Shown: positions 1 through 28,358 of the stretch, piece by piece
Position numbering within the stretch: position 1 is the stretch's first letter
Layout: each line of letters begins with the position of its first letter
Source: a virus
Virus record (IMG/VR): IMGVR_UViG_3300025736_003641
Coordinates: 1-30,039 of that record
Direction: 5' to 3' (one strand)
DNA length: 30,039 nucleotides
Notes under the pieces: model-generated
What the model was told of the DNA's origin: nothing
The model's input: the letters and a program-made list of their open reading frames with translations, nothing else
Database searches by the model: none
Position numbers and translations under genes: made by a program

Positions 1-594
1 ATTGAACAATTCAAAGTTAAATTGTCTCTTGATGAAGGAATTCTTGACGATGAAATAAAATCATTGCTTAAAGAATCCAAAGAAGAAATTCTTAATTTAA
101 GAGAAAGTGTTAATGGTCTTACAAAAAAAGAAATTGATTTACAGGAAGATGCTAAGAAAATGGCAACTCATATTTATTTAAGAACTAAATGTGATGGTCT
201 TACAGAATCTAATAGACAAAAAGTTATTTCTCTTTTAGAAGATGTAGAAGATAAAAAAGAAATTGATAAGAAATTTGACTATATTGTTGAAACTATTTTA
301 TCTGAAAAGAAAAAAGTAGATGATGATGATAAAGATGGTGAAGAAGAAGAATCATTTTCTTATGAATGTCCTAAATGTGGGGAAAAATTTGAACTTACAG
401 AAAAAAAAGAAGAAGTCAAATGCCCTGAATGTGGTGAAACTTTTAAAGTAAAAGTTTCAGAAGAAGATGATAAAAAAGATGAAGGTAAGGGAAAAATAGA
501 TGTCAATAATAAAACTAAGATTGACGAAGATAAAAGTCCATTTAAAACACAACAAAATGAATGGGTGAAAATTTTACAAGAAGGTAAATTCTAG
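1..594 (+). CDS. Prohead core scaffold protein, gp22-like, 5'-partial, with C-terminal zinc ribbon
   Basis: The frame is open from base 1, so the TTG at 22 is not the start and the N-terminus lies outside the window. The visible 197 residues are mostly charged and helical. The stretch around IYLRTKCDGLTESNRQKV followed by a KKEIDKKFD segment resembles T4-like capsid assembly scaffold proteins, and the position just before the capsid gene matches T4 order (22 then 23). After an acidic DDDDKDGEEEE linker comes a four-cysteine zinc ribbon (CPKC and CPEC, 15 residues between the pairs), then a second acidic stretch and the tail NEWVKILQEGKF. Gp22-type proteins form the prohead core and are degraded by the head protease. 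The zinc ribbon is not something I know from T4 gp22. The stop is TAG. Family assignment is by similarity I recognise plus context. Confidence 0.75.
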   Translation: MEQFKVKLSLDEGILDDEIKSLLKESKEEILNLRESVNGLTKKEIDLQEDAKKMATHIYLRTKCDGLTESNRQKVISLLEDVEDKKEIDKKFDYIVETILSEKKKVDDDDKDGEEEESFSYECPKCGEKFELTEKKEEVKCPECGETFKVKVSEEDDKKDEGKGKIDVNNKTKIDEDKSPFKTQQNEWVKILQEGKF

Positions 595-622: not shown

Positions 623-1798
623 ATGGATTTAAAAGAATTAGTTAAAAAATGGGAAGGCGTTCTTAATGAAGGCGATGTTAAAATTAAGGACAAAAAAAGA
701 TTGAAATCAACTGCTTTGATGCTTGAAAATGAATATAAATATCTTAACGAATCTGGTAATTATTCACAACCAGGTTTAAATAGAGATGCTGGATATGCAA
801 CATCAGGTGATTTTCAACAAATAGCTATTCCAATGGTTAGACGTACATTTCCAGAACTTATTGCTCATGACGTGGTTGGTGTCCAACCACTTACGGGACC
901 TGTTGGTCTTGCATTTGCATTAAGATTTAGAGCTGGTCAAACTTATGATAGTGCAGCAAATACTGAGTTAGGTTACAATACTATTGATAGTGATTATTCC
1001 GGTTCTAGTGTAACATCTGCTGGTGAATTACTTGGTTCTAATGCTACAGGTGATATAGGACTTGGTGTTGGTAGTGGTACAGCTATTAAAGAAGTAAATA
1101 TGACAATCGAAAAAGCACAAGTTGAAGCTTCTACTAGAAAGCTTAGAAGTAGATGGTCATTAGAAGTCGCACAAGATATTAAAGCGATGCATGGTCTTGA
1201 TCTTGAAGAAGAAATGCTTGATATTCTATCATATGAAATCACAGCAGAAATTGATAGAGAAATTATAGACCAAATTAATTCAGTTGCTGTATCAAGTGGT
1301 TGGGATTATAACAATCCTTCAGATGCTGATGGTAGATGGCAGTCTGAAAAGTACAGAACACTATATAATATGGTGATCAGAAAATCTAATCAAATAGCTG
1401 TTAATACAAGACGTGGTGCTGGTAACTTTATCATAGCTTCACCAATTGTATGTGCTGCTCTTGAATCACTTTCAGCCTTTACAGTTTGGCCTGTTGGTAC
1501 TAATATTAATAGTAACATTACAGGTGTAGCTAAGGTTGGTACTCTTGATGGTCGTGTAACAGTTTATAGAGATACATTCGCATCAGAGGATTATTGTACA
1601 GTAGGATATAAGGGACCAAGTGAATATGATTGTGGTATAATTTATCTACCATATATTCAGTTGCTAGTAAGTAAAGCAACATTTGAGGATAGTTTCAATC
1701 CAACTATCGGACTTATGAGTAGATATGCAATTCATAATCAAATCTTTGGGGCTAATTTGTATTACCAAAGAATTAGAACATTTAACTTACCTCAGTAA
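623..1798 (+). CDS. Major capsid protein, gp23-like (HK97 fold)
   Basis: This 391-residue protein has gp23-type features: an N-terminal charged prohead segment, then IPMVRRTFPELIAHDVVGVQ (about 68-87) and PLTGPVGLAFALRF (about 89-102), and the C-terminal HNQIFGANLYYQRIRTFNLP tail. It is shorter than T4 gp23 (521 residues). T4-like head proteases cut after [IL]-x-E. The best candidate here is YLNE followed by SGNY, cutting after E43 just before the conserved body; LNE at 14-16 is a second match. An AGGAGG ribosome binding site lies 11 bases before the ATG. The gene follows the scaffold by 28 bases and is closed by a strong hairpin, so this is the end of a plus-strand late head operon that meets the minus-strand genes head-on. 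Confidence 0.95.
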   Translation: MDLKELVKKWEGVLNEGDVKIKDKKRLKSTALMLENEYKYLNESGNYSQPGLNRDAGYATSGDFQQIAIPMVRRTFPELIAHDVVGVQPLTGPVGLAFALRFRAGQTYDSAANTELGYNTIDSDYSGSSVTSAGELLGSNATGDIGLGVGSGTAIKEVNMTIEKAQVEASTRKLRSRWSLEVAQDIKAMHGLDLEEEMLDILSYEITAEIDREIIDQINSVAVSSGWDYNNPSDADGRWQSEKYRTLYNMVIRKSNQIAVNTRRGAGNFIIASPIVCAALESLSAFTVWPVGTNINSNITGVAKVGTLDGRVTVYRDTFASEDYCTVGYKGPSEYDCGIIYLPYIQLLVSKATFEDSFNPTIGLMSRYAIHNQIFGANLYYQRIRTFNLPQ

Positions 1799-5411: not shown

Positions 5412-5911
5412 ACCCACCAATCTGAATGATTATTAATAGAATCTAAACAAAAATCGGTCTCAACATTTTCTTTACCAAATTTTTCATTAACAGCTCTATC
5501 AACATCTTTCGTCTTACCTCTACCATAATCATGTCCACATATAAGACCACCCATTTTAACTTTAGAATAATAATTGTTAATATCTTCTTTTACTCCCTCA
5601 TATCTATGATCACCATCTATATAAACAAAATCAAGTTCATTATCTTTTATATATTCACACGCTTTTATTGAATCGACATGTAAAAAAATAATTTTATCTT
5701 CAAATTTTTTCAACCTTTTTATTGACATATTCTTATCAGACCCATTATGTGACCATATATCTATTAAATACAATTTTTTTATATCTAATTTTTCTAGCAT
5801 ATCAAATGAATTTTTTCCTTGTAAAACACCTACTTCAGCTCCAATTAAATCTTTTTTATCTATAAAGTTTTGTAATGAAGGTCTATTTAAATATATTTTT
5901 TGTGTTTTCAT
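5399..5911 (-). CDS. Class I SAM-dependent methyltransferase, Methyltransf_24 type
   Basis: The 170-residue protein has a glycine-rich motif I (IGAEVGVLQGKNSF), a strand ending in YLIDIW, and the family signature DFVYIDGDHRYEGVKEDI followed by GGLICGHDY. This matches the small methyltransferases common in glycan clusters and large phages, often thought to methylate sugars. I place the start at the ATG at 5911, which overlaps the stop of the 48-residue upstream gene (ATGA), rather than the GTG three codons earlier. The end overlaps the repeat protein gene. Confidence 0.85.
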   Translation of the reverse strand: MKTQKIYLNRPSLQNFIDKKDLIGAEVGVLQGKNSFDMLEKLDIKKLYLIDIWSHNGSDKNMSIKRLKKFEDKIIFLHVDSIKACEYIKDNELDFVYIDGDHRYEGVKEDINNYYSKVKMGGLICGHDYGRGKTKDVDRAVNEKFGKENVETDFCLDSINNHSDWWVWKK

Positions 5912-6054: not shown

Positions 6055-6721
6055 ACATTTCCTCTAATTTCTTTTTATATTTTTTAATTCGTTCTTTTTT
6101 AATACCATATTCAGTCTTATGTGCTGACCATATCATAGAATCATCTTTTTCTAAATGGTCTAAATATTGTCTGCTTACATCAAGCCATTTTAGACCTTTT
6201 GCTATATACAATTCACAATATCTTGCTAATGATGGTTGATCTTTATTAAAATAATATACTTGATCATCAAGAAGATATTTAGACCATTTTCTTAATAAAT
6301 TCATACTCATGGCTGTAGGTCTTACTGCTAAAAATCCACCAGCTATTTTATTCTTATTAATTCTAATACCGGCCATATCAAAGTCTTTCATTTGACTTTT
6401 CAAAACATCTATAGGATTTATTAACATCATATCTGTATCAATCATAATATGTAAATCATCAGGAAAAAGTTTAATTGTTTCCATAAGATATTTTGCTTTA
6501 TTTTCTATAATTTGCCATGCCATCTGAACATTTATTATATCTTTTATATCATGCTCTATAACAAATGTATTACTATATTCTATTAATTTTTTGCTTTCCT
6601 CAAATTTTATATTAATACAATGAGCAGCAATAATAGCTGTAGGCTCTATTATATTAATGGATTTTATAAGAACATTTGCCCACTCCATATAATCTTTATT
6701 AAAATAAATTGTAAATGTCAT
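6035..6721 (-). CDS. Glycosyltransferase with DxD motif (GT8-like, GT-A fold)
   Basis: The 228-residue protein has a DxD metal/nucleotide-sugar site, HIMIDTDMMLINP (D95, D97), followed by an IAGGFLAVRPTAMS segment and a DQPSLARY stretch, as in GT8-like and related GT-A transferases that make a retained-configuration bond from a nucleotide sugar. The C-terminal tail is very lysine-rich. Donor and acceptor are unknown. It starts in a 4-base overlap with the upstream GT4 gene. Confidence 0.75.
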   Translation of the reverse strand: MTFTIYFNKDYMEWANVLIKSINIIEPTAIIAAHCINIKFEESKKLIEYSNTFVIEHDIKDIINVQMAWQIIENKAKYLMETIKLFPDDLHIMIDTDMMLINPIDVLKSQMKDFDMAGIRINKNKIAGGFLAVRPTAMSMNLLRKWSKYLLDDQVYYFNKDQPSLARYCELYIAKGLKWLDVSRQYLDHLEKDDSMIWSAHKTEYGIKKERIKKYKKKLEEMYENRSN

Positions 6722-7641
6722 AATAAATCCTTCATAAAATTAGTATATTGTGTAGCCATATACTTTATTGTTAATTGTTTAGGTATAATAACTCTTGGTC
6801 TATCTTTATAAACATCCGTTATAGCATTTAATATTAATTGTGATGTAGTATCGGATATTACATTATATTCATCTCTATAAGGATAACACGGCTGTATATT
6901 TTGCTCTTCACCACTACATGATATACACCCCTTTGTAATATTAACCATTTCTGTAGCCCCGCCACATGCATTAGTCGTTATAACAGGTACACCAGCTCCT
7001 ATAGCTTCAACTACTGTATTAGGACATGAATCTTTTTTTGATAAATGAATTGATAAATCACCAATTCTCCAAACGGGTTTCATTTCATTTTCATTAAGAT
7101 GACCATAATATATAATACTAGGATGGTCATATTTTTTATTTTGTATTGTATCACCTAATATATGAAGTCTGGCATCTTTATGTAATTTATGAAATATTAT
7201 AAATAAATCAATAATTTCTTTAAGTCTTTTATGTCGCCTCCATTTAGATGATACAATAATATTAAAGTTATTTGTATCAATATGCTTACCGCACCACATG
7301 TTATCTACACCATTATAAATAACAGATGTTTTTGCATTAAAATTTCTGGGTGATAAATACTTTTCACACATTTTTTTAGAAAAATTGCTCTGATATATTA
7401 CACCATTAGCAATATAATGTGATTTTGATATCAATAAATTTCTTTTATTATAATCAGTATCATTATCATAATATATACCATCAAGACGTAATACTTTAGG
7501 TACATTAGACTGTTGAATAAATTTAATAAAAGATAAATGAATATCACCTTTGATAGTTATTTGATGGCCATCAGATTTCCAATAAGGTAACATTCTTTTT
7601 ATTACCACATGCTCTTTACCATGATCTATAGATATATTCAC
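6718..7641 (-). CDS. GT4-family glycosyltransferase (GT-B fold)
   Basis: The 307-residue protein has the C-terminal half of a GT-B enzyme: VSSKWRRHKRLKEIIDLF, HILGD, YYGHLNENEMKPVWRIGDL and the donor-site motif SCPNTVVEAIGAGVPVITT, which carries the family EX7E element. GT4 enzymes transfer from UDP-, GDP- or ADP-sugars with retention. At 307 residues the N-terminal acceptor domain is reduced. The start is GTG at 7641, overlapping the stop (TGA) of the broken nuclease frame before it. No better ATG is present near the start. Confidence 0.85.
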   Translation of the reverse strand: MNISIDHGKEHVVIKRMLPYWKSDGHQITIKGDIHLSFIKFIQQSNVPKVLRLDGIYYDNDTDYNKRNLLISKSHYIANGVIYQSNFSKKMCEKYLSPRNFNAKTSVIYNGVDNMWCGKHIDTNNFNIIVSSKWRRHKRLKEIIDLFIIFHKLHKDARLHILGDTIQNKKYDHPSIIYYGHLNENEMKPVWRIGDLSIHLSKKDSCPNTVVEAIGAGVPVITTNACGGATEMVNITKGCISCSGEEQNIQPCYPYRDEYNVISDTTSQLILNAITDVYKDRPRVIIPKQLTIKYMATQYTNFMKDLL

Positions 7642-7869
7642 TTAATAAATTCCTTAATATTATTAATACATTTATTTTTAACATCTAACCAGTCTTGCTC
7701 TTCTATTACTAATAAATCTATTCCTTTATTTAAGCATTGTAAAATTTTCTGTTGATCTTTATATTTACTATATTTTGAACTATGCCACCACACCATTATA
7801 TTCAATTGCTTTATTAAGACTTGGCATCCAAAGATCTAATTCTAAATTCCATCCTGTTTTTGGATTCAT
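7638..7869 (-). pseudogene. Frameshifted fragment of a Vsr-like (EDxHD) homing endonuclease
   Basis: An ATG at 7869 overlaps the preceding stop (TAATG) and reads MNPKTGWNLELDLWMPSLNK then AIEYNG, before hitting TAG at 7780-7782. In the +1 neighbouring frame the same family continues immediately: VWWHSSKYSKYKDQQ, then LNKGIDLLVIEEQDW, to a TGA at 7638. Together they give the well-known phage pattern ELDxWxPxLxxxIEYNGxxWHS...GIxLxxIxExxW of Vsr-like nucleases. About two bases are missing near 7785-7793, within a GTGTGG-like run. The recovered 77 residues are only the C-terminal catalytic part of such enzymes. A decayed selfish gene is likeliest; programmed frameshifting cannot be ruled out. Confidence 0.75.
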
Positions 7870-9362
7870 TATTTTTTTCTTTTTAATATTTTATATCGTA
7901 CTTTATTTTTAATTAGCTTTTTACATTTTGATTGCTCTTCTGGCAATATTTTAGATAAATTATTTGGATTTTCACTGTTATAAATATACAACACATCTTT
8001 TATAAATCTTATTTTATTAGATGGGGTCATTTCTAAAATTGGGTACATCAAACATCTATCATAACTATATTTAATGAATTTTTTATCATCATCTTTAAAA
8101 TCCCTTTGATCAATATTCATATATAAAAAAGCTTTAAATGTTTGCAAATGTGTATAAATCCATTTAGATTTTCTAAATGATCTATTAATTATTTTAACAG
8201 CTTGTTTTGGATTTTTTGGTAAAAATTTAGGATTGTTTAATCTACTATATTTTAAACTACCATAAGTTACCCAGCATTTTTTCTTTTCATATATATCATT
8301 AAGTTTACTTAGTACTGTGTTATCAGCAAGCCAATCATCAAGATCTAAAACAACTATTATACTTTCATCATCAATAATATTAGGTAATAAATAATCAATA
8401 GAATTTGCTAACCATTTTCTATTTTTTGCTGATTTATATGATATAACTTTATCATCTTTATATGTCATTATTTTTTCATAAGTGTCATCAGTACTGTGAT
8501 CATCTACAATAATATGTGTATAATTTTTATAAGTTTGATTTTGCACACTTTCAATATTTTTAATAGCATAATCTTTACAATTATATCCAGAACTAAAAAT
8601 AATAAAATGATTACCTTTTACCTTTTCTTCATCTTTATATTTCAATATATCATATTTTTTTCTATTTTGATACCAACTACAATATTTTATTTGATCATTT
8701 CTATTAACAGTTTTATCATTTAACTCATGAATATTATATACATATGAAATATCTTTAATTTGACGAATTTTAACCGCTGGCGTCATTTGTAATATAGGAT
8801 AACCTATAGCATAATCATAACTTGTTGTTGGATATTCTTTGTCAGGTCCTAAAAGATCTTTTTTATCAATATTATCCCATATAAACGATTTAAATGTTCT
8901 TAATGCCCAAAATTTCCATCTATACGTTTCAAATTTCTTTTTTGTTAATTCTTCAGAATTATAACCATTAAAATTGTTTTTTCGTACTTCACCTGTACTT
9001 CTAACTAATGTACCATAAGTTACCCAGCATTTTTTCTTTTCATATATATCATTAAGCCCCGTAAAAACTTTTTTATGCACAAGCCAATCATCAAGATCTA
9101 TTATTGTAATAACATCATATGCGCTGTCAGTCTTAATATACTTTATAGCATTATATACCCAGCCTTTGTTATCTTTATTGTGATGTACTATAGTCTTATC
9201 ATCTTTATATTTCATTATTTCATCAAAAGTACCATCAGTACTGGCATCATCTACTATAATATGAATATAATTTTGATAAGTCTGTTTTTGTACACTTAAC
9301 ATATGTTTTTTTATATAATCTTTACAATTATATCCTGAACTAAAAATAACCAATTTTTGCAT
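7869..9362 (-). CDS. Tandem two-domain GT2 glycosyltransferase
   Basis: The 497-residue protein is two GT2-like domains in tandem, about residues 3-245 and 252-497. Each begins with a copy of the same unit (IFSSGYNCKDY), has the nucleotide-sugar motif (IIVDDASTDGT at 35-45; IIVDDHSTDDT in domain 2) and a DxD-type site (IDLDDWL near 88-94; LDLDDWL near 339-345). Both also share LNDIYEKKKCWVTYG. GT2 enzymes are inverting transferases. Two active sites on one chain could add alternating sugars, as in polymerising synthases, but that is inference. The next gene downstream in the window (9365) encodes a third, single-domain relative, so the locus grew by duplication. Confidence 0.87.
   Translation of the reverse strand: MQKLVIFSSGYNCKDYIKKHMLSVQKQTYQNYIHIIVDDASTDGTFDEIMKYKDDKTIVHHNKDNKGWVYNAIKYIKTDSAYDVITIIDLDDWLVHKKVFTGLNDIYEKKKCWVTYGTLVRSTGEVRKNNFNGYNSEELTKKKFETYRWKFWALRTFKSFIWDNIDKKDLLGPDKEYPTTSYDYAIGYPILQMTPAVKIRQIKDISYVYNIHELNDKTVNRNDQIKYCSWYQNRKKYDILKYKDEEKVKGNHFIIFSSGYNCKDYAIKNIESVQNQTYKNYTHIIVDDHSTDDTYEKIMTYKDDKVISYKSAKNRKWLANSIDYLLPNIIDDESIIVVLDLDDWLADNTVLSKLNDIYEKKKCWVTYGSLKYSRLNNPKFLPKNPKQAVKIINRSFRKSKWIYTHLQTFKAFLYMNIDQRDFKDDDKKFIKYSYDRCLMYPILEMTPSNKIRFIKDVLYIYNSENPNNLSKILPEEQSKCKKLIKNKVRYKILKRKK
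8258..8303 (-). repeat. 46-bp exact direct repeat, copy A (GT2 domain 2)
   Basis: These 46 bases are identical to 9011-9056 and encode the shared LNDIYEKKKCWVTYG segment in the second GT2 domain. The flanking domain sequence has diverged considerably. Confidence 0.9.
9011..9056 (-). repeat. 46-bp exact direct repeat, copy B (GT2 domain 1)
   Basis: Exact partner of 8258-8303, located in the first GT2 domain of the same gene, 753 bases away. Identity at the DNA level, including third codon positions, suggests recent gene conversion. Confidence 0.9.
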
Positions 9363-11045: not shown

Positions 11046-11853
11046 AATTTATCCTTTCATAAAAATATTTAAAACTATCAACTATCATATTAACATCATT
11101 AGTAGGAACTGTAAAACAATTATTATTAAAATTATATATACCATCATTAGCATATAATCCAACATTATTACCCCATGAAAATACAGGCTTTTGTTGTAAA
11201 TTGCATAAAAATGTCCAATGACTTATAGGACATATGACAGCATTAGCATTCATTATATATTTAACAATATACTTATAACCATTTTCAAAATAATCCACAT
11301 TTTTTAAAATCATATTTTCATCAGATAAATATGATTTCATGTCACCTATTACTTTAATATTAGAAAACTGTTTAATTAAATTATCATAAATATTTTTTAT
11401 TACATCCTCATTTGAACTCTCATCAGGAATAAAAACAATATAATCTTCTTCTTTAATATTAACATCTTGTGGTGTTTTAATAGGGCTAAATACTTTATTA
11501 TAGATAGGGCAATGATTCTTATTTTTTGAATACTTCAAAAAATGATTTTCTATTTTATCATGTATTACCGATTGTATATATTTTTTAAATTGTTTTACTA
11601 TAAGATTAAAATCTTTTGGTTTAAAGTCTTTATATATACAACCCTTTTGATTCAATTCATCTCTGGTGATATCTTTATATTCAGACCATATTTTATCATC
11701 ATCAATCCAATCATAAAGAAACGCTCTATTATCATGCGTTGATAAAAAAATATTATCACATTCTATAATCTCCGATACCCATTTAACATACGGCCTAAAA
11801 ACCATTATTTCATATTCCCAGTCTCCAATATAAGGACCTAGAGATAATACCAT
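11032..11853 (-). CDS. GT-B-like protein, possible glycosyltransferase
   Basis: The 273-residue protein has a C-terminal half that looks like the donor domain of GT9-type or related GT-B enzymes: IVFIPDESSNEDVIKNIYDN, IKVIGD, then YIMNANAVICPISHWTFLCN and QQKPVFSWGNNVG. This resembles the 'ADAVIxPxSGxMHLAxxxxKPVVxxFG' arrangement. The opening MVLSLGPYIGDWEYEIMVF could be the first Rossmann strand and loop. I cannot identify the sugar. Its place at the head of the glycosyltransferase run supports a glycan role. Confidence 0.55.
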   Translation of the reverse strand: MVLSLGPYIGDWEYEIMVFRPYVKWVSEIIECDNIFLSTHDNRAFLYDWIDDDKIWSEYKDITRDELNQKGCIYKDFKPKDFNLIVKQFKKYIQSVIHDKIENHFLKYSKNKNHCPIYNKVFSPIKTPQDVNIKEEDYIVFIPDESSNEDVIKNIYDNLIKQFSNIKVIGDMKSYLSDENMILKNVDYFENGYKYIVKYIMNANAVICPISHWTFLCNLQQKPVFSWGNNVGLYANDGIYNFNNNCFTVPTNDVNMIVDSFKYFYERINYAVK

Positions 11854-11864
11854 TTATATTTCAC

Positions 11865-12323
11865 CTATTGTATTATAACATTGCCATTCCATTTCTTAAA
11901 TATACTAGAATACATATTATAACATTCCTTTTCAATTTGAATTACTTCTATATTTTTTAACACATCTGACAAAGTATTTTTATTTAAAACAAATGACTTA
12001 TCATGTTCTGTTAAATTACAAACATTTAACAAGACTTTATTATTTCTTCTAAAAAAAGTTATAAGATTATCATATGAGGTATTTTCAACATAATACTTTT
12101 TAACTGTTCTTTTAAGTATATCATTATAAATTTTAATATTATTTGCTATAACAAATCTATTAGTTTTATTCCATAACACCATAACAGCTTCTACTTTTTC
12201 AATAGAAGGTTGTTTAAAATCAAATTTTATTAAATGTACTCTGTCAATTTTTAATAATTGTTCATCTTTAATATTTTCTTCATTAATAGTAATATAATCA
12301 GATCCTATCTTAGTAATCAGCAT
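11865..12323 (-). CDS. Conserved-looking protein of unknown function
   Basis: I do not recognise this 152-residue protein. I chose the ATG at 12323 because it has an AGGAGA site 7 bases upstream; the earlier TTG would place translation further into the primase gene. It begins MLITKIGSDYITINEENI and looks like a mixed alpha/beta soluble protein with no membrane segment or cysteine cluster. It lies between primase and the glycan island, so it could belong to either module. Confidence 0.65.
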   Translation of the reverse strand: MLITKIGSDYITINEENIKDEQLLKIDRVHLIKFDFKQPSIEKVEAVMVLWNKTNRFVIANNIKIYNDILKRTVKKYYVENTSYDNLITFFRRNNKVLLNVCNLTEHDKSFVLNKNTLSDVLKNIEVIQIEKECYNMYSSIFKKWNGNVIIQ

Positions 12324-14152: not shown

Positions 14153-15921
14153 TTAATTACACTTACTTTCACCACAATTTTGACAAACCTTACAACCCTC
14201 TATTAATATTACAGAATATGTACCACATTTATTACACAGTTCTTTATTATTCGGTACATTATCAAATTCACAATTCAAATAATATCTTTGAAGCAATTTA
14301 GCTATACCATCTGGTATAGATAATATTTGTGTAGGTTTTTTATCAGTAACTTCAAATCTATGCCATGCTGTTCTATCAGAATTAATACCTATCAATGTAT
14401 CTACTAACGCCTGAACAGGTACATTATTTTGTAAAGATATAGACATTGATCTACCAAGAGATTCAGTAAACACATTAAATAATTGTCCTGATTTACCCAT
14501 ATTCATAAATATTTCAACAGGTTTACCATTATGAGTTGATATTGTAACATACAATTTCCCATTACCTGTTTCAAGTACATGAACATTAGCTGATAATTTA
14601 GATGGTCTATTAAAAAATGATATAGCTTCTTTCTTTTTAGAATCAAATGTTATCGGTTGAAATTTTTTAGAACCATCTCTATATACAGTAACACCTTTAA
14701 GACCTCTTTCATAAGCATATTTATATAAATCACTTATTTCTTCTATTGTTATATCTTTAGGAAGATTTATAGTACTTGATATAGCAGATGATACATATTT
14801 TTGTAATTCTGATTGCATATCAATTCTATCTTTATATTTAATATCATGTGCTGTAACAAATACATCTCTAACATCTTTTGGAATCCCTCGAATACCTTTA
14901 AGTGAACCATTATTTAATGCTATTTTTTCTAACAGTGTATCATTATACCATTCTTCATCAGAATATTTTGAAAAAATCTTATTAGTAATATTCATTGTAC
15001 CACCATCTATAAGGTTCTTTTGAAACACAAGTCCAAAGCAAGGCTCCATACCATATGAACAATCACAAGATAAAGCAGTTGTGCCAGTTGGTGCACAAGT
15101 TGTATGTTGTACATTACGAAGTCCATATTTTCTTACCTTTGACATTATATTTTCATCATTATCAGTAAGATCCTTAATAATTTCTATAACATCATCTTTA
15201 ACAATATCATAATCAGCAAAAGTACCGCGTTCATTAGCAAGGTCAGCACTGCATTCTATGCAAGCATTAGTTATTGTTTTCATTATACGACCTGAAAAAA
15301 CTTTACCATCAACACTATCATATCGTAAATCTAATTGATATAATACATCTGATAAACCCATCATACCAATACCTACAGGTCGATATTTTGTAACCATTTC
15401 TTTAAATCTATTATCTGGATGATCCATAACATCAATAATATTATCCATAAATCTCATAATTTTATAAGAGGTTTTATACAAACCATCAAAATCAAATTTA
15501 CCATTTTTATAAAACTTTGATACATTAATAGAACTTAAATTACATGAAGTGTATGGCCATAAAAATTGTTCCAGTTTGTTCTTTCTAAAAGTTTTTTATC
15601 TTTTAGTTCTATTGATTCGTTTTATCAATAGTTCGGCATATCTTTTCATTATTAAAATGTCCCGGCCTCTTGGTGATTTATATTCTCATATTGAGTTTCA
15701 ATCCACTATGCTCTGCCCCTGACTATTCTTTTATAAATAGCCTTCGGTTCGGATTCCCATCACAGGGTTCCCGCTTAATTCCGAGATGATTATACTGAGG
15801 CAAACTATTCACCACAGTTGTGTATTAATATATTATTAGCAAAAAAATTATGATTTTTAAATGTTGTTAAATCATAAACATCTTCGTTGTTTACATGTTT
15901 TTTACTTATTAATCTACCCAT
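14153..15921 (-). CDS. nrdJ: Class II ribonucleotide reductase, C-terminal part, fused to C-intein and interrupted by a group I intron
   Basis: Exon 1 (15811-15921) encodes a 35-residue C-intein and then Cys-Gly. Exon 2 (14153-15571) continues E-Q-F-L-W-P-Y-T-S-C-N-L and runs 472 residues to the stop, giving a 474-residue C-extein. A TTG at 15481 is not the real start. The body has class II reductase features: CAPTGTTALSCDCSYGMEP, YKYAYERGLKGVTVYRDGSK, a TSCPD-like domain and a C-terminal cysteine cluster (CNKCG...CKVCQNCGESKC) that would re-reduce the active site. The enzyme turns ribonucleotides into deoxynucleotides using adenosylcobalamin. With the 260-residue N-extein the joined enzyme would have 734 residues, normal for the family. 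An AGGAGA site lies 8 bases before ATG 15921. Confidence 0.92.
15572..15810 (-). mobile_element. Group I self-splicing intron (239 nt, no ORF) in the RNR gene
   Basis: Removing 15810 down to 15572 joins ...TGT GGT to GAA CAA TTT and restores the NCGEQFLWPY reading frame across an in-frame TAG. The exon ends in U and the intron in G, as group I introns require. P1 forms between exon CTGTGGT (15811-15817) and internal guide GCCTCAG (15795-15801), with the U-G pair at the splice site and one mismatch. GTTT just before the guide can pair with exon-2 GAAC as P10. Core elements are visible: AATTAAGCGGGAACC (P-like), AATCCG (Q-like), nested P4 (CGG/CCG) and P5 (CCC/GGG), P7 (GGCA/TGCC) with AAAGATATGCC (S-like), and a perfect 8-bp P9 hairpin at 15609-15631. 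I did not resolve P3 and P8. Confidence 0.9.
15817..15921 (-). mobile_element. Split intein, C-terminal fragment (35 residues)
   Basis: ATG 15921 opens MGRLISKKHVNNEDVYDL and the fragment ends NHNFFANNILIHN, followed by Cys +1 of the extein. This has intein block F (VYDLTTFKNHNFFANN) and block G (ILIHN, with the cyclising Asn and penultimate His). It has its own ATG and ribosome site and lies over 1 kb from the N-half, so the intein must act in trans. The sequence strongly resembles the C-half of the metagenomic split intein NrdJ-1, whose +1 residue is Ser at a different site. Confidence 0.93.
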
Positions 15922-16912
15922 TTAGTAATTCTCCTTTTAATTTTTTATATGTGCCAAATGTAGATCTTATGTCACACATAATACCATTATCTTTACAATA
16001 CTGTTTAAATTCTTTTCTATTTGGTATTCTTTTATATAACTTTTTAAATTTAATATAAAGTAATGATTGTTGTTTTCTTTTATTACTAACTAATTTTTTC
16101 ATTCTATATTTTATAGAACATGATATACTACAAAAATCCCCTTTTAATTTATTATTATGCTTAATAGAAGAATAACATATAAAATTACCATTTATTCTAT
16201 CATAAAGACCATATATATCAAATTTTTTATTACATTCTAAACAGGTATTTGTAATTAATTTTTTATTATATAATCTATTGATATCACTAAGCCACTCTCT
16301 AATTTTAGGATCTTTCATTCTATTTTTTTGAAAATCACTTAATACTTTTCTTCTATCATTTGTAAAAGACCTTTTAATAGCTTTTGAATGTATTTTTTTA
16401 AATTCAGGATCTTTCATTCGTTCAGATGTTTTAAATCCAATAAATTTTTTAGTTTTATTACTATGTTTAAAACCAAAATGGGGATTTTTACATCCTTTCA
16501 TATCATGTTGTATTAAAGAACTTTTATTAATCCATTCTTCAACATCATATTTTAAACAATATTTATTTATTAATTTATTAGTATGCCTCTTATATAATAC
16601 AATATATTTAATATTAATATTTTTAAAATAATTATAATATTTATTAATATATTCAAAGGCTTCTTTTTTACTGTATTTTACTTCTATAATATATTTTATA
16701 TTATAATTATTGTATATAAAAAAATCTGGTTTATATCCTTTTCCATTTATATTATATATAATAGATTCGGTTTTATAATTTTTATTTAATATATCCAACC
16801 ATTTAGCTACAATAAATTCTAATTTTGATCTTAAATATACTTTAACATTTTTATTATTTTTATACCACCCACAATAGCCTCTAGATGTTCTATCATTATT
16901 ATTTAATTTCAT
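15914..16912 (-). CDS. Free-standing PD-(D/E)XK homing endonuclease between the intein halves
   Basis: The 332-residue, very lysine- and asparagine-rich protein has an N-terminal nuclease domain with E32 (RSKLEF), D63 (YKPDFF) and E77-V-K79 (YIIEVKY), the PD-(D/E)XK catalytic pattern. The middle has MKDPE/MKDPK repeats typical of DNA-minor-groove NUMOD-like modules. A zinc finger follows (CLECNKKFD ... FCSISC), and the C-terminal RIPNRKEFKQY ... TFGTYKKLKG resembles the homing-endonuclease-associated repeat. It has its own GGAGAT ribosome site and ATG, and its stop overlaps the C-intein start by 8 bases. The likely job is cutting uninterrupted nrdJ alleles so that the locus is copied in. This is not the Vsr-like family usually reported in fractured genes. 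Confidence 0.85.
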   Translation of the reverse strand: MKLNNNDRTSRGYCGWYKNNKNVKVYLRSKLEFIVAKWLDILNKNYKTESIIYNINGKGYKPDFFIYNNYNIKYIIEVKYSKKEAFEYINKYYNYFKNINIKYIVLYKRHTNKLINKYCLKYDVEEWINKSSLIQHDMKGCKNPHFGFKHSNKTKKFIGFKTSERMKDPEFKKIHSKAIKRSFTNDRRKVLSDFQKNRMKDPKIREWLSDINRLYNKKLITNTCLECNKKFDIYGLYDRINGNFICYSSIKHNNKLKGDFCSISCSIKYRMKKLVSNKRKQQSLLYIKFKKLYKRIPNRKEFKQYCKDNGIMCDIRSTFGTYKKLKGELLNG

Positions 16913-16941
16913 ATAATATCTCCAATGTATTCTTTTAATTC

Positions 16942-16949
16942 TATTTATA
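16942..16949 (-). promoter_or_regulatory. T4-late-promoter-like TATAAATA upstream of the endonuclease gene
   Basis: TATAAATA on the minus strand lies 29 bases before the endonuclease ATG, in the 62-base spacer after the N-intein stop. T4 I-TevI is likewise expressed from a late promoter of this sequence. The motif also occurs by chance inside coding regions here (for example near 13060 and 14720), so confidence is limited. Confidence 0.4.
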
Positions 16950-16974
16950 AAAATACATCTATTTTTATTATTAT

Positions 16975-18057
16975 TTATGAAATGTAATTACACATAATAT
17001 TATCTTTATCTGTTAAATCTTTAGCTTCAATATATCCTCTGTTTTTAGTATAAATTTTATGGTCAGGTGTACATTTTAATGTAAAAATATTATTATTTTC
17101 TTCAATTTTTAATTCTATTATATCTACATTTTCTTTAGTTTTTCCTACAAATTCAATATTTTCAAATTCAACTATATCATTTTTAATATTATATGTTAAT
17201 ATTTCATCTTTAATATTAACATTCTTTATAGGAATATCGCCTCTATTAGTATTTACTATTGTATCTCCAACAATACATGGATTACTTGATTGAATAAGAC
17301 ATAACTTCTTTAAAACATTATATTTATTAACAGTATCAATAAATATAACACCAGGATCGGCAGATTTCCATGACATTTCAGATATTTTATCCCACACTTT
17401 TTTTGGATTTATCTCACCAACTTTTTTCATACCATAAGGTGATAAAAGATCATATGGTATGTTATCTTTTAAGCATTCCATGAATTTATCATCAATAACT
17501 ACTGATATATTCATATTTTTTAATCTACCATCAATTTCTTTACATGCTATAAATTCAAGAATATCAGGATGCCATATAGGCATAACACACATTATAGCTG
17601 CTCTCCTTGCTCTACCACCACTCTTTGTAGTCTCACCAACAGAATCAAATAATGACATAAAACTTATAGGGCCTGAACTTTTACCTTTAGGTACATTTTC
17701 TGAATCACCATCATATATAGAAGCATTATTTTCTCTTAAATTACCTACAGGTATACCAACACCTGCGCCATATTGAAAAATTTTTCTTGATGTATTAGCA
17801 ACATCATATATACTATCCATTGTATCTTCAAGTCCTAAAACAAAACAGGCTGAATATAATTTCTTTTTTGTTCCAGCATTAAAAAATACAGGAGTATTAC
17901 ATCTCCAAATATTTTGTTTTAACAGGTTATAAACTTCCTTTTTTTCTTCTTCATTTGTTGCAAATTCTTTAGATACTCTTTTAAAAGTACCATCTATAGT
18001 TTCATCACCCAATTTATATAATTTATCAAAAATCTTTACTGCATTATCACTCAACAT
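16975..18057 (-). CDS. nrdJ: Class II ribonucleotide reductase, N-terminal part, fused to N-intein
   Basis: Residues 1-260 are the N-extein: MLSDNAVKIFDKLYKLG start, NTPVFFNAG (54-62), active-site C71 in YSACFVLG, FQYGAGVGIPVGNLR, TTKSGGRARRAAIM and LIQSSNP (254-260). The next residue should be the radical cysteine of NPCGE, but here C261 starts an intein. Residues 261-360 are the N-intein, and the ORF stops there. The ATG has an AGAGG site just ahead. The gene follows a hairpin terminator at 18075-18112, so it may have its own expression, but I could not find a clear promoter in the short leader. The half-enzyme cannot work alone; it needs trans-splicing to the product of 14153-15921. Confidence 0.93.
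   Translation of the reverse strand: MLSDNAVKIFDKLYKLGDETIDGTFKRVSKEFATNEEEKKEVYNLLKQNIWRCNTPVFFNAGTKKKLYSACFVLGLEDTMDSIYDVANTSRKIFQYGAGVGIPVGNLRENNASIYDGDSENVPKGKSSGPISFMSLFDSVGETTKSGGRARRAAIMCVMPIWHPDILEFIACKEIDGRLKNMNISVVIDDKFMECLKDNIPYDLLSPYGMKKVGEINPKKVWDKISEMSWKSADPGVIFIDTVNKYNVLKKLCLIQSSNPCIVGDTIVNTNRGDIPIKNVNIKDEILTYNIKNDIVEFENIEFVGKTKENVDIIELKIEENNNIFTLKCTPDHKIYTKNRGYIEAKDLTDKDNIMCNYIS
16978..17277 (-). mobile_element. Split intein, N-terminal fragment (100 residues)
   Basis: It begins CIVGDTIVNTNRGDIPIKN (block A with catalytic Cys1) directly after SSNP. Block B is seen in FTLKCTPDHKIYTKNRG (TPDH), and the fragment ends IEAKDLTDKDNIMCNYIS. A length of about 100 residues is typical of natural N-inteins. 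CTPDHxxYTKNRGYxxAxxLTD is nearly the same as in NrdJ-1, which supports very fast-splicing split-intein ancestry. Confidence 0.93.
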
Positions 18058-20516: not shown

Positions 20517-20747
20517 TTATGCTGCTAATTCATCTGATGATTCAAAATCAATTTCAAATTTAGTACCAGATAATTTTTTCTTTAATAATTTTTCTGCTTC
20601 TTTTTCTGCTTCTTTTAGATTTTCAGAATATAAATCAAAATATACATTAAACTCCACACGACATTTTTTTTTATCTTTTTCATTTAAATATTTATCTATT
20701 TTATCTTTTTCATTTATTAAATATTTATCTATTGTATCTATTTTCAT
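20517..20747 (-). CDS. Small coiled protein with internal repeat
   Basis: This 76-residue, highly charged protein starts with a tandem unit, (I)DKYLINEKDK then IDKYLNEKDK, followed by VEFNVYFDLYSENLKEAEKE and a lysine/glutamate helix. The repeat is also visible in the DNA (20680-20735). The gene is spaced 1 base from the upstream nuclease gene. Function is unknown. Confidence 0.6.
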   Translation of the reverse strand: MKIDTIDKYLINEKDKIDKYLNEKDKKKCRVEFNVYFDLYSENLKEAEKEAEKLLKKKLSGTKFEIDFESSDELAA

Positions 20748-22013: not shown

Positions 22014-22307
22014 TTATACATTTTGATGTTCTTTAGATGATTTACTAGCTTGCTTTTCTGTTTTACCTTTACCACGCCAAAACGTGCTACCAAAAACAAC
22101 ATCTTTTATAGAAGCGCAAAATCCTTCTGGATTATCTATATTACCACTCATTTTATTGACACATGCATCAAAAAATCCTTTTTTATCCCCACCCTTGATA
22201 CCTTTATCTTTTACTAGTGTTTTAGCAAATTTTATAACACTATTTTTATCCCATCCTTTAGGATATTCTTCAAATCCGGATTCCTGTAAATAATCTCTAA
22301 TCTTCAT
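22014..22307 (-). CDS. Putative packaged internal protein with capsid-targeting leader
   Basis: The 97-residue protein begins MKIRDYLQE then SGFEEYPKG. The first nine residues resemble T4 capsid-targeting sequences (T4 internal proteins start MKTYQEFIAE), with an L-x-E cleavage motif after which Ser follows, as in the neighbouring fusion protein. The body has GGDKKGFFDACVNKMSG and NIDNPEGFCASIKD, a pattern seen in small phage proteins of unknown function, and a basic, serine-rich tail that might bind DNA. It is coupled to the RimK-RimB gene by a TAATG overlap with a GAGGAG site. If packaged, it may be injected with the genome. Confidence 0.6.
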   Translation of the reverse strand: MKIRDYLQESGFEEYPKGWDKNSVIKFAKTLVKDKGIKGGDKKGFFDACVNKMSGNIDNPEGFCASIKDVVFGSTFWRGKGKTEKQASKSSKEHQNV

Positions 22308-23677
22308 TACTCCTCACTTAATATAAATTTTTTACCGGGATTTATAACCAATCCAGCCCTTCTTATAAATCTTCTGTTTAATAATATCATTGTTGTATTT
22401 AAATCCCTATCTGATAAAGTAAACTTAATATTATCAAATATTTTATCATTAAATACCATATCTAACATTACCACAGGTCTTTTCTCAAATCTACTTTTTA
22501 CTCCACCCATTTCTATATTTTTATAGTCTATTAAATCGCTTATAATTTTTTTACCATCATGATACCATACAACTTTTTTACCGTTTATTTTCCATTTATC
22601 AGCATGAATAACAGAATATGAACCATTACCAGTATCCATTTTAGCTTTAATATAATTTTTACCTAATTGCTCAATTTTAACATTTTCGATAAAACCACTT
22701 TCTTTAGTTGACATTATCCAGTTATCTTTATTAATAATAAAATCAATAACTTTCTTTACAACAGGTATATTAGTAGCTTTTTCAATACCAGTTGTACCAG
22801 GAGATGAATTGATTTCTAATACATATACAGTACCATCTTTACCTATCATCATATCAACACCACACCATATACCACCTACAACATCTGCAGCATTAATAGC
22901 TATATCTTCCTGCTCTTTTGATAATTTTACACTCTTAACTTTACCACCTAATGAAAAATTTGACCTAAAATCATTATCGACTTTATATCTTCTCATAGAT
23001 GCAATAACTTCACCATTCAATACATGTGTTCTTATATCATAATCAGCTTGTATATAAGATTGTAATAATATTTCTATTTCTGGATTTATCTTCCATACAG
23101 TCTGTAAAGTTGATTTTAATCCTTCCCATGTATCAGCTTTAAAAACACCTATACCTTTTGACCCTGTAATAGTTTTAAGAATAACTGGAAATTTACCACC
23201 TATATTTTCAAAAGCATTTTCAATCATACTTTCTTCTGATACAAGTGATGTTTTGGGGCATATTATAGAAGCGTCTGATAGAAGCAATACAGTTCTATAT
23301 TTATCAGAACATTCTTCCAAAGTTTCTCTTGAATTGATACAAAATATATTATTCTTTTCTAATTGTGATAATAAATTTAAGCTATATCTTAATGAAGCAA
23401 CACTTCCTCTAATAATAGCTACAGTATTATCACTATCTATCTTTATACCTTTATCATCATCTAAATTTTTAAGATAACTATCACCTGTGCTATCTTTATC
23501 TATATAAGCATTTTCAACAAATGCTATATAACAATTAATCTTTTTTTGTATACATATTTTTTTAATTTGACTAGCTGTTTTAAATAAACCATCCTTATCA
23601 TCTTTTCTAGATGTAAGAACTATGATATTGATATCCTTATTTTTATTACTTTCATTAATAAATTCTCGTAATCTCAT
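22307..23677 (-). CDS. RimK-like ATP-grasp ligase fused to RimB-like retropepsin
   Basis: Residues about 15-315 form an ATP-grasp amino-acid ligase like RimK: LKTITGSKGIGVFKA with K168, the YIQADYDIRTHVLNGEVIA segment, D274 and the E288-I-N290 metal/ATP site, then SSPGTTGIE. RimK adds glutamates to ribosomal protein S6 (RpsF). Residues about 335-456 match the RimB retropepsin family (Put_ATP-dep Zn protease, PF05618): KAKMDTGNGSYSVIHAD with D348-T-G350, RFEKRPVVMLDM, FTLSDRD and the final INPGKKFIL. The first nine residues, MRLREFINE, followed by Ser resemble a capsid-targeting leader. The protein may be injected to modify host targets by glutamylation and proteolysis, but substrate and timing are inference. 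An AAGGAT site precedes the ATG. Confidence 0.85.
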   Translation of the reverse strand: MRLREFINESNKNKDINIIVLTSRKDDKDGLFKTASQIKKICIQKKINCYIAFVENAYIDKDSTGDSYLKNLDDDKGIKIDSDNTVAIIRGSVASLRYSLNLLSQLEKNNIFCINSRETLEECSDKYRTVLLLSDASIICPKTSLVSEESMIENAFENIGGKFPVILKTITGSKGIGVFKADTWEGLKSTLQTVWKINPEIEILLQSYIQADYDIRTHVLNGEVIASMRRYKVDNDFRSNFSLGGKVKSVKLSKEQEDIAINAADVVGGIWCGVDMMIGKDGTVYVLEINSSPGTTGIEKATNIPVVKKVIDFIINKDNWIMSTKESGFIENVKIEQLGKNYIKAKMDTGNGSYSVIHADKWKINGKKVVWYHDGKKIISDLIDYKNIEMGGVKSRFEKRPVVMLDMVFNDKIFDNIKFTLSDRDLNTTMILLNRRFIRRAGLVINPGKKFILSEE

Positions 23678-23684
23678 TTTATCC

Positions 23685-24098
23685 TTAAAAAATATTTATT
23701 ATCTTTATCATAAATGTATCAACATCTTTAAATACATTTATAAATTCGTTGAATCCTTTACCAGCAACATTTCTTGATGTTAATACTGATGGCTCATTAT
23801 TTATTTTACCAAATTCTTCAGCTATCAATATACATCCTTTAGTGTCATCATCTCTATTACCCCAATGAAACAATATATGTGATCTATTAGCCACATTTGT
23901 TATCTCAAATGTATTACCAAATTTAGGTGAATTTACTCTTTTACAAAAATAAGTATCAGATGGTATACATGATATATTAGATTTGTTATTAAGCCAAGGA
24001 TTTTCAACGGTTACAGCAAATGGTGTGTTATTAATTAATAACACACCAAAAGTACCATATTCTGTCATTGCTATTCTTTTTAATATTAATGTTTTCAT
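23685..24098 (-). CDS. DUF5675 family protein
   Basis: The 137-residue protein shows the family pattern: TFGVLLINNTPFAVTVENPW, ISCIPSDTYFCKRVNSPKFG, and SHILFHWGNRDDDTKGCIL. DUF5675 proteins are frequent in phages and prophages. Conserved His, Asp and Cys residues (HWGN..DDTxGC) look like an active site related to L,D-transpeptidase-like or peptidase folds, but function is not established. There is no Shine-Dalgarno sequence before the ATG; the leader is TATAAATATAAATATG, so initiation may be weak or from another signal. Confidence 0.8.
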   Translation of the reverse strand: MKTLILKRIAMTEYGTFGVLLINNTPFAVTVENPWLNNKSNISCIPSDTYFCKRVNSPKFGNTFEITNVANRSHILFHWGNRDDDTKGCILIAEEFGKINNEPSVLTSRNVAGKGFNEFINVFKDVDTFMIKIINIF

Positions 24099-24121
24099 AT
24101 TTATATTTATATAAAAAACAG

Positions 24122-25360: not shown

Positions 25361-25609
25361 TTAAAGCTCCCACATTTCTTTAGGTATTATAAACTTTCTT
25401 ATTTGTTTATTAAATTTATATTCTATATAATTTTCACCTTCAATCCACCATGATTTAGTGCCATTAAGCCCTATAAAAGCCGGACCATTAATTCTATGTC
25501 TTTTACCATCTTTATACCATTCTTTAATACCATTATCATATATTATAGCTGGTCCATCTGTACGATGATACTGTCCGTTTTTATTTTTATATATTTTTAT
25601 TGCTATCAT
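25361..25609 (-). CDS. HRxDGPA-repeat protein, copy 2
   Basis: The 82-residue protein has about two 23-residue units (YHRTDGPAIIYDNGIKEWYK; RHRINGPAFIGLNGTKSWW) followed by the family tail, YIEYKFNKQIRKFIIPKEMW-EL. This tail is shared with the other copies and with the 48-residue ORF at 5909. The start overlaps the upstream stop by 4 bases (ATGA). Unknown function; probably a small beta-hairpin repeat protein. Confidence 0.8.
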   Translation of the reverse strand: MIAIKIYKNKNGQYHRTDGPAIIYDNGIKEWYKDGKRHRINGPAFIGLNGTKSWWIEGENYIEYKFNKQIRKFIIPKEMWEL

Positions 25610-26226
25610 ATTTTATTTAATATTTTCCTTATAAAAATACTGTCAGATTTTATATCATCACAATATTTTCTATAATTTTCAATAACTAATGGTATTAACA
25701 TTCTATCATTATCATTAAGAGCTAAATGTTTTCTACTTATAAGAAAAGTTAAAAAATATTTATCTATATCATTTTTAATATAATGATATACAGGTGATCT
25801 TAAACCATCTAAAGTTAATAATGAATATTGTGTTAATAATGATATATCGGGTCTATATGACCGTTCTTTCATAAATTTTTTAATAAATATGATAGAATAT
25901 AACATAGATTTTTTCATAGATATAGTGGTTCTTTTTATATTTTTATCCCTTTCTTTATAGAAATTTATAACATGTCTATCAAAAAATTTAATGTATGAAA
26001 AATTTTTACCAAATAATTCAAAACCGCAATCAAAAAATTTAGCACAATCTATATTAGACCACTTGGTATTAAACCATTTAGTAATGATTTCAAGTGCTTC
26101 TTTATTTTTAGCAGCTAATCTTGTATTAAAAAATTTATCAAAATCTTTTGGTAATCTATAAGGTCTTGATATAAAACGAGATTGTGATTGTCTAAAATAT
26201 GTATATGTATCTTGTTCTGTTATCAT
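25606..26226 (-). CDS. Protein of unknown function within the repeat-protein cluster
   Basis: I chose ATG 26226 (MITEQDTYTYFRQSQS), which overlaps the stop of the preceding repeat protein (ATGA), over a GTG three codons earlier. The 206-residue protein is helical and basic, with many aromatic residues (FDCGFELFGKNFSYIKFFD) and no recognised motif or membrane segment. It is translationally coupled on both sides to HRxDGPA-repeat proteins, so a shared function or assembly is plausible. Confidence 0.65.
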   Translation of the reverse strand: MITEQDTYTYFRQSQSRFISRPYRLPKDFDKFFNTRLAAKNKEALEIITKWFNTKWSNIDCAKFFDCGFELFGKNFSYIKFFDRHVINFYKERDKNIKRTTISMKKSMLYSIIFIKKFMKERSYRPDISLLTQYSLLTLDGLRSPVYHYIKNDIDKYFLTFLISRKHLALNDNDRMLIPLVIENYRKYCDDIKSDSIFIRKILNKI

Positions 26227-26531
26227 ATGACCCACATTTCCGGTGGTATTAACTGTTGCTTTAATTTTTGGTCATTAAATTGATGTTCTGTATATTCTTT
26301 ATTATTTATATACCATGCTTTAGTACCATCACACCGTTCTACAGCCGGTCCATCTGTTCTATGCCTTTTACCCATATACCACCATGACTTAAAACCGCTA
26401 ACAAATTCAATAGCTGGACCGTCTTCACGATGCCTTTTACCACCAACAAACCATTCTTTATCTTTATTAGGATGTATTATAGCTGGGCCGGTTGTACAAT
26501 GTAATTGTTTTTTATCATTTCTATATATCAT
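26223..26531 (-). CDS. HRxDGPA-repeat protein, copy 3
   Basis: The start is ATG 26531 (MIYRNDKKQLHCTTGPA), overlapping the stop of copy 4 as TAATG; the upstream GTG is less likely. The 102-residue protein has three to four units (RHREDGPAIEFVSGFKSWWY; RHRTDGPAVERCDGTKAWY) and ends EHQFNDQKLKQQLIPPEMW-VI. The first unit is degenerate (HCTTGPA). It is closely related to copy 4, with near-identical DNA over the tail region, so the two arose by recent tandem duplication. Confidence 0.8.
   Translation of the reverse strand: MIYRNDKKQLHCTTGPAIIHPNKDKEWFVGGKRHREDGPAIEFVSGFKSWWYMGKRHRTDGPAVERCDGTKAWYINNKEYTEHQFNDQKLKQQLIPPEMWVI
26231..26296 (-). repeat. 66-bp near-identical direct repeat (tail of copy 3)
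   Basis: This segment matches 26539-26604 at 62 of 66 bases and encodes the shared tail YTEHQFNDQKLKQQLIPPEM. The offset is 308 bases, the length of one duplicated gene. Confidence 0.85.
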
Positions 26532-26923
26532 TATATCTCCCACATTTCTGGTGGTATCAACTGTTGCTTTAATTTTTGGTCATTAAATTCTTGTTCTGTA
26601 TATTGTTTACCTTCTATATACCATTCATTATGACCATTAAGACGTTCTATAGCTGGACCATCTATACGATGCAATATACCCTTAATGTACCAAAATTTAG
26701 TACCATCAGACCATTTCATAGTTGGACCATCTGTACGGTATAACATACCATTATGCCACCATTCCTTTTCACCATCAGCCCATTCTATTGCTGGACCATC
26801 TTCACGATGTAACTTACCGTTTCTATACCAATAATTAGAACCATCAAATCCTTCTAAAGCCGGACCATCTATTCTATGTAACTGTTCTTTTTCATTATAA
26901 TGTGCTATTCTATGTGCTTTCAT
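26531..26923 (-). CDS. HRxDGPA-repeat protein, copy 4 (longest)
   Basis: The 130-residue protein has four clean units, for example LHRIDGPALEGFDGSNYW, LHREDGPAIEWADGEKEWW, LYRTDGPTMKWSDGTKFWY and LHRIDGPAIERLNGHNEWY. Each is 23 residues including the closing xxGK/M. The tail YTEQEFNDQKLKQQLIPPEM-WEI follows. This copy best defines the consensus. The start overlaps the glycosyltransferase stop (ATGA). Confidence 0.85.
   Translation of the reverse strand: MKAHRIAHYNEKEQLHRIDGPALEGFDGSNYWYRNGKLHREDGPAIEWADGEKEWWHNGMLYRTDGPTMKWSDGTKFWYIKGILHRIDGPAIERLNGHNEWYIEGKQYTEQEFNDQKLKQQLIPPEMWEI
26539..26604 (-). repeat. 66-bp near-identical direct repeat (tail of copy 4)
   Basis: Partner of 26231-26296 (62/66 identical), encoding the tail of the longest repeat protein. 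Confidence 0.85.
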
Positions 26924-28031: not shown

Positions 28032-28358
28032 TCATATAATCCACATTTTAGATGGAATTAATTTTAATTTTAATTTATAATCATTGAATTTTTGTTTTGT
28101 ATAGTATTTACCTTCTACATACCACCCTTTATAACCATTAACATATTTTATTGCTGGCCCATCTTTACGATGTAATACACCATTTTTATACCATACCGTG
28201 TCACCGTTAGGATATATTACAGCCGGTCCATCTATTCTATGTAACTTATTATCAATCCACCATTCTTTAGAACCGTTAGGATATATTACAGCCGGTCCAT
28301 CTGTACGATGATATTGTCCTTTATCATTACGATATTCTTTCATAATATTTTTTTTCAT
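28032..28358 (-). CDS. HRxDGPA-repeat protein, copy 5
   Basis: The 108-residue protein starts at ATG 28358, which overlaps the DUF4326 stop (ATGA), and has an AAAGG site upstream. It has three units (YHRTDGPAVIYPNGSKEWW; LHRIDGPAVIYPNGDTVWY; LHRKDGPAIKYVNGYKGWY) and the tail YYTKQKFNDYKLKLKLIPSK-MWII. Consecutive units share VIYPNG, also at DNA level, indicating recent internal duplication. Confidence 0.82.
   Translation of the reverse strand: MKKNIMKEYRNDKGQYHRTDGPAVIYPNGSKEWWIDNKLHRIDGPAVIYPNGDTVWYKNGVLHRKDGPAIKYVNGYKGWYVEGKYYTKQKFNDYKLKLKLIPSKMWII

Follow-up and report, generated by a model that had tools for sequence, protein, structure and literature searches.

Why should two adjacent proteins with unrelated bodies begin with nearly the same nine residues? 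The question is raised by a 30,039-base environmental virus fragment from IMG/VR (the window; the record holds nothing beyond these 30 kb), in which a fusion of the enzymes RimK and RimB and a neighbour of 97 amino acids start with leaders of one length and pattern. The initial annotation took both leaders for capsid-targeting sequences like those of the phage T4 internal proteins, cut by the phage protease, and proposed that the two proteins are packed in the head and delivered with the DNA. Sequence comparison supports that reading, because each step open to such a test came out favourably: the conservation of the leader, the cleavage site just before the body, its position outside the fold, the matching site in the capsid protein and a gp21 protease in relatives. 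We consider it likely that RimK-RimB and its neighbour are internal head proteins which are packed, cut and injected with the DNA. The features concerned are listed below, with a slash marking a predicted or known cut.

22307..23677, minus strand: RimK-RimB fusion, 456 amino acids, starting MRLREFINESNKN; Pfam RimK 150 bits and Zn_protease 43 bits, both above cut-off
23651..23677, minus strand: its predicted capsid-targeting leader MRLREFINE, predicted cut E9/S10; 28 aligned homologues and 77 tallied relatives
22014..22307, minus strand: leader-bearing small helical protein, 97 amino acids, a new family, starting MKIRDYLQESGFEE; five homologues
22281..22307, minus strand: its predicted capsid-targeting leader MKIRDYLQE, predicted cut E9/S10; E9 invariant in six homologues
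623..1798, plus strand: major capsid protein (gp23 family); PF07068 340 bits, predicted maturation site YLNE43/S44
22..594, plus strand: prohead scaffold protein (gp22-like), partial or with an uncertain start; PF25623 T4_CASP 31 bits against a cut-off of 27, phrog_237 head scaffolding

The capsid-targeting sequences of T4 internal proteins (IPs) are 10–19 residues long; in IPIII, targeting depends on residues 4 and 7 and processing on residues 8 and 10, and gp21 cleaves after L/I-x-E (PMC9026906). Counted back from the cut, these positions are P7 and P4 for targeting and P3 and P1 for processing. Leaders read from the T4 genome are MKTYQEFIAE/A for IPIII (quoted correctly in the initial annotation), ..TITE/A for IPI, MAKINELLRE/S for gp24, FLTE/A for gp23 and MELITELFDE for Alt. 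A hypothetical T4 protein of 54 amino acids, gene 61.1 (NC_000866 18966-19130, minus strand), also starts like a capsid-targeting sequence, with MKTFKEFIKE/D.

The window leaders place L3-F6-I7-E9 and I3-Y6-L7-E9 at P7-P4-P3-P1 and close with the cleavage motif [LI]-x-E, as INE/S and LQE/S; at nine residues each they are one residue under the T4 range. Both genes had been located and started correctly: a Shine-Dalgarno-like sequence (aaggat and gaggag) precedes each start and the ATG of the 97-residue gene overlaps the stop of the RimK-RimB gene, which supports both start calls. The bodies are indeed unrelated: one has RimK and Zn_protease/RimB domains, and the other matches nothing in Pfam or PHROG. 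The two leaders agree at only 16 of 30 nucleotides, so that their likeness is at the protein level and a recent DNA duplication of the leader is ruled out. Within the window, the four-position motif derived from T4 is found in 2 of 52 open reading frames (ORFs) against 0.20 expected (P = 0.017), an excess that is modest taken alone; it is the relatives that make the leader evidence secure. A broader motif, [FYLIM][LIV].E[ASGT], was dropped as less specific, with UvsX false positives and a marginal excess in the window (P = 0.055). The initial annotation missed a related leader on a third protein, and two promoter-like octamers lie just upstream of the gene at 23685-24098, which opens the run with both leader genes:

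20517..20747, minus strand: protein of 76 amino acids whose leader, MKIDTIDKYLINE/K, is of a second type and a weaker case than those listed above; called from the sequence, and resembling the leaders of core-type genes next to gp21 in relatives (MIENKIDKYLGE/A)
24098..24120, minus strand: two TATAAATA octamers resembling T4 late promoters; weak, not above chance in the AT-rich window

Searches for close relatives with single window proteins returned almost only near-identical contigs, and we therefore used pair alignments instead. Alignment of the fusion with its counterpart in Pelagibacter phage Mosig led to at least 288 relatives in IMG/VR, from which 80 loci were kept, and every readable N terminus of RimK-RimB among them begins with a leader. 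The leader is present in 77 of 77 tallied relatives in 33 distinct versions, all of which have E at P1, I or L at P3, F or Y at P4 and F at P7, while P1' is A in 27. At the nucleotide level these leaders exist in 45 different versions, and each fixed position is encoded by synonymous codons, which argues that selection acts on the leader peptide. Glu9 is the first invariant residue in an alignment of 28 proteins, and residues 12-14, just past the cut, are among the most variable. The rule is also followed by Mosig (..PFKNYLEE/A) and by the RimK-only protein of Methylophilales phage Melnitz (..KFSQFITE/E), and no leader was found on the RimK-only gene product of cyanophage S-RIM12. Two apparent cellular matches to RimK-RimB (loci L152 and L153) look like contigs of T4-like phages binned into metagenome-assembled genomes; we read them as phage because clamp-loader and regA-like genes adjoin RimK-RimB just upstream, with a DNA polymerase gene downstream in L153.

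The 97-residue family shows the same junction. Its five homologues (at loci L005, L013, L028, L112 and L114) all carry different leaders, and the six leaders vary in length and sequence and yet all end in [LI]xE/[SA] right before the body (LQE/S, LSE/A, IQE/A, LTE/S, IKE/A and INE/A), with E9 invariant across the six aligned proteins. Judged from these sequences, little other than a cleavage site would account for such a junction. The bodies conserve C .. FCA-x-KD .. WRGKGK; the family has no Pfam match, and against PHROG the window protein has no match and one homologue a single weak one. A tblastn search of phages with the 97-residue protein gave a weak portal match only, and its structure model is too poor for use (predicted local distance difference test score, pLDDT, 57). 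G001, a contig of 97 kb on which the L013 homologue lies, shows no general enrichment of leaders and is not a gp23 phage by phmmer. At L028, a rubrerythrin-like protein with the leader MKFQDYINE/L (11578-12196, plus strand) adjoins the 97-residue homologue, whose leader is MKFKDFLENKINE/A.

Behind its leader (residues 1-9), the fusion consists of a RimK ATP-grasp domain (about 124-314) and a RimB-type Zn_protease/retropepsin domain (about 328-454) with DTG at 348-350. Catalytic motifs are intact in both: D275, E288 and N290 of the RimK domain (PF08443, 150 bits) are invariant in 28 homologues and aligned with solved RimK, and DTGN (D348-T-G) of the RimB-type domain (PF05618, 43.2 bits against a cut-off of 27; weak match to 9g59) is invariant in the same 28-way alignment. 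The AlphaFold model (pLDDT 81) has residues 1-12 below 50 and its first strand at residue 17, so the leader is predicted to be disordered and outside the folded domain. The solved folds nearest to the model are RimK structures, including Escherichia coli RimK with RpsF (5zk6). RimB is a retropepsin-like polyglutamate protease that cleaves internal polyglutamate runs and also stimulates RimK, and a cellular RimB-RimK hybrid was protease-active with no RpsF glutamylation detected (PMC11957791). The same two enzyme domains, with the DTG motif, share one protein in that hybrid (RimBK, Desulfotalea psychrophila DP2392) and also occur in the RimA-RimB-RimK system of Pseudomonas (PMC11957791); in the cellular hybrid RimB is N-terminal, whereas the phage fusion has RimK first, RimB last and a leader in addition.

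The window phage belongs to the T4 superfamily, since Pfam recognises two head proteins at the left end of the window, one a scaffold protein (PF25623), the other a major capsid protein of the gp23 type (PF07068, 340 bits). It is far from isolates, the best identity of the capsid protein being 37%, to Pelagibacter phage HTVC008M. The capsid site proposed in the initial annotation, YLNE-S, holds up on alignment: E43/S44 lies opposite the T4 gp23 cleavage site FLTE65/A66, where the two closest long relatives of the window, G005 and G006, have YLTE/G and YLTE/T. The scaffold protein has an acidic tract that includes EEEE and a candidate ILQE/G close to its C terminus. We did not find the gp21 protease in the 30-kb window; a gp21-type protease (PF03420) is encoded by the close relatives G005, G006 and G010, and in the first two the genes adjoining gp21 and portal have similar leaders. 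The gp21 gene of G005 (107292-108965, minus strand, locus L150) carries an in-frame intein-like insert right after GELGHPE, adjoining the likely catalytic histidine.

Whole genomes were scanned for [FYLIVM]xx[FY][IL]xE near the N terminus, with shuffled residues as the null; its four positions are those described for T4 in the literature, and the P values are indicative because the scan motif was fixed after the RimK-RimB leaders had been seen. G006 has 9 matches against 0.90 expected (P = 5e-7) and G005 has 7 against 0.82 (P = 2.5e-5), while Mosig has 4 against 0.68 and T4 has 4 against 1.20, IPII and IPIII among them. Leader-bearing proteins in this phage group include a methyltransferase, acetyltransferases, amidoligase_2 proteins and a rubrerythrin, so the leader is common to unrelated bodies; that of the methyltransferase, MRLLNFINE/S, is almost identical to the window RimK leader. 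The initial annotation also overlooked that the system is a payload locus that varies across relatives: in the syntenic contig L005, short genes with MKIR-type starts are clustered between the SSB gene and an endonuclease gene, in the place that the two leader genes of the window occupy. In this the locus is like the variable loci for internal proteins in T-even phages (PMC12373910).

Several of these payload candidates deserve separate mention. Amidoligase_2-type proteins, at L028 518-1630 (plus strand, leader MSRFKHYILNE/A, above the Pfam cut-off) and G005 6692-8098 (plus strand, leader MSRLDNYLIE/K, under it), would represent a second kind of peptide-ligase payload in the phage group. A SAM (S-adenosylmethionine)-lyase family protein (PF23780) of G005 (17245-17823, plus strand, locus L145) has a related leader-like start, MNVEDKIDKILVE/A, and is possibly an injected anti-restriction enzyme. 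Two related phrog_12810 proteins with leaders in G006 (L133 1886-2245 and 3373-4215, plus strand) have no Pfam match above cut-off, and their 'IYRG' motif recalls ADP-ribosyltransferases.

From the conservation of leader and cleavage site, the position of the leader outside the fold, the intact catalytic motifs and gp21 in relatives, all obtained directly here, we infer packaging, cleavage, injection and a target as follows. The nine-residue leader would dock each protein in the prohead core, and a gp21-type prohead protease would then cleave behind [IL]-x-E, when it also matures the capsid protein at YLNE43/S44. Once trimmed, the proteins would stay in the head alongside the packaged DNA and pass with it into the host. 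The RimK domain would most likely ligate glutamate to a host protein, perhaps ribosomal protein S6 as the obvious candidate, and the RimB domain would stimulate or trim this ligation. The enzyme could thus act ahead of any phage gene expression, as T4 Alt does by ADP-ribosylation.

A number of observations weigh against this mechanism. The 30 kb of the window include no gp21 gene. What comes closest to direct virion evidence is Yersinia phage YerA41, whose particles were analysed by liquid chromatography–tandem mass spectrometry and whose gene 66 is a RimK-RimB fusion labelled 'structural protein' in the record annotation; this homologue is without a canonical leader, and the particle proteome includes many replication enzymes, which points to possible contamination. 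The cellular hybrid that was tested showed protease activity and no RpsF glutamylation. Marine RimK-RimB genes belong to the replication cluster of regA and DNA polymerase, and just one of 76 has a late-like promoter octamer in front of it, which gives no sign of late expression there. Such T4-type octamers are enriched ahead of genes in relatives, without marking leader genes in particular. The T4 internal proteins are likewise made early, and for this reason the argument against late expression is not decisive. A short [IL]xE also arises by chance, RecA-like UvsX proteins being an example. On the other side, genes other than RimK-RimB at the marine loci match the broader motif at about the chance rate, with roughly 8 matches in about 470 ORFs, near the 5.1 expected over all 503 ORFs.

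The replication-cluster location and the near absence of late-like promoters in marine relatives would also suit a leader that forms a conserved N-terminal helix for some other purpose (regulation, partner binding or stability), the proteins acting after synthesis in the infected cell. We regard this as improbable, because the same pattern stands on unrelated proteins, its fixed positions are exactly those of T4 targeting and cutting, the 97-residue homologues exchange leaders and yet keep the cut motif, and RimK-RimB genes match the motif far more often than the other genes at their loci, which stay near background. Simple coincidence between two adjacent N termini, to which the window alone might lend itself (just 2 matches against 0.20 expected), is already refuted by the homologues, with conservation in 77/77 relatives of RimK-RimB and 6/6 of the 97-residue family, and we give it next to no weight.

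A further alternative accepts packaging by the leader and places the work in the prohead, where RimB would trim the glutamate-rich scaffold or core, RimK would tag them, and the fusion would be a head-maturation enzyme. The activity of RimB on internal polyglutamate runs (PMC11957791), the EEEE tract of the window scaffold, and the similar leaders on genes next to gp21 and portal in G005 and G006 agree with it. We nevertheless think it unlikely: RimK-RimB lies outside the head cluster and is matched by only 27 phage records against 2509 for the capsid protein, RimK requires ATP, and unrelated catalytic payloads with the same leader fit cargo better than core machinery. Packaging followed by injection therefore remains the reading we favour.

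The closest known systems are the T4 internal proteins IPI, IPII and IPIII, which share with the window genes a short N-terminal leader with the capsid-targeting positions, unrelated bodies, a hypervariable locus and a T4-type capsid protein, with a gp21-type protease in the relatives of the window. Those T4 proteins are small and inhibit GmrSD restriction enzymes (PMC12373910), whereas the predicted payload of the window is a two-domain enzyme. T4 Alt is likewise a catalytic protein-modifying enzyme, carried in the head and with a short leader that is cleaved off (MELITELFDE), features that are predicted for the window protein; its fold and chemistry are unrelated, ADP-ribosylation standing against predicted glutamate ligation and polyglutamate proteolysis. 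Gene 5 of Mosig EXVC030M (QOI68969) encodes the same fusion at 36-37% identity over 99%, but lies between regA and DNA polymerase and is annotated only as a putative glutathione synthetase. YerA41 has the same fusion and differs, besides its leader, in having its own RNA polymerase subunits. In the open-access literature we found no paper that connects capsid targeting with either RimK or aquatic T4-like phages; what is new is the enzyme payload and its domain arrangement within the known T4 internal-protein delivery system.

So far, injected phage proteins are known mainly from T4 and phages close to it, the majority being small inhibitors of restriction. Should the leader have the meaning that it has in T4, a simple sequence rule would read the injected proteins of very abundant aquatic phages directly from metagenomes, and ribosome or protein glutamylation would join the short list of virion-delivered enzyme activities. 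More tentatively, and with the balance tilting against it for now, aquatic T4-superfamily phages might routinely carry RimK-RimB in their heads and glutamylate the host ribosome or another protein at infection, within a large, rapidly exchanged arsenal of injected enzymes (acetyltransferases, methyltransferase, amidoligases, SAM lyase and rubrerythrin) recognisable by one short label. The claim is testable now, as the cultured phages Mosig (fusion) and Melnitz (RimK alone) carry leader-bearing versions.

Two further observations concern the rest of the window. The ribonucleotide reductase large-subunit gene (14153-18057, minus strand; no Rfam match) is fractured into an ORF ending in an intein N-half (CIVGDTIVNTNRG..), a separate ORF and an intein C-half (..NHNFFANNILIHNC/GE), with one more interruption between the C-half and the remaining gene. 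Five small paralogues of a repeated motif are dispersed on the same strand:

5091-5420, 25361-25609, 26223-26543, 26531-26923 and 28032-28358, minus strand: H-R-x-D-G-P-A .. W paralogues, recognised from the sequence
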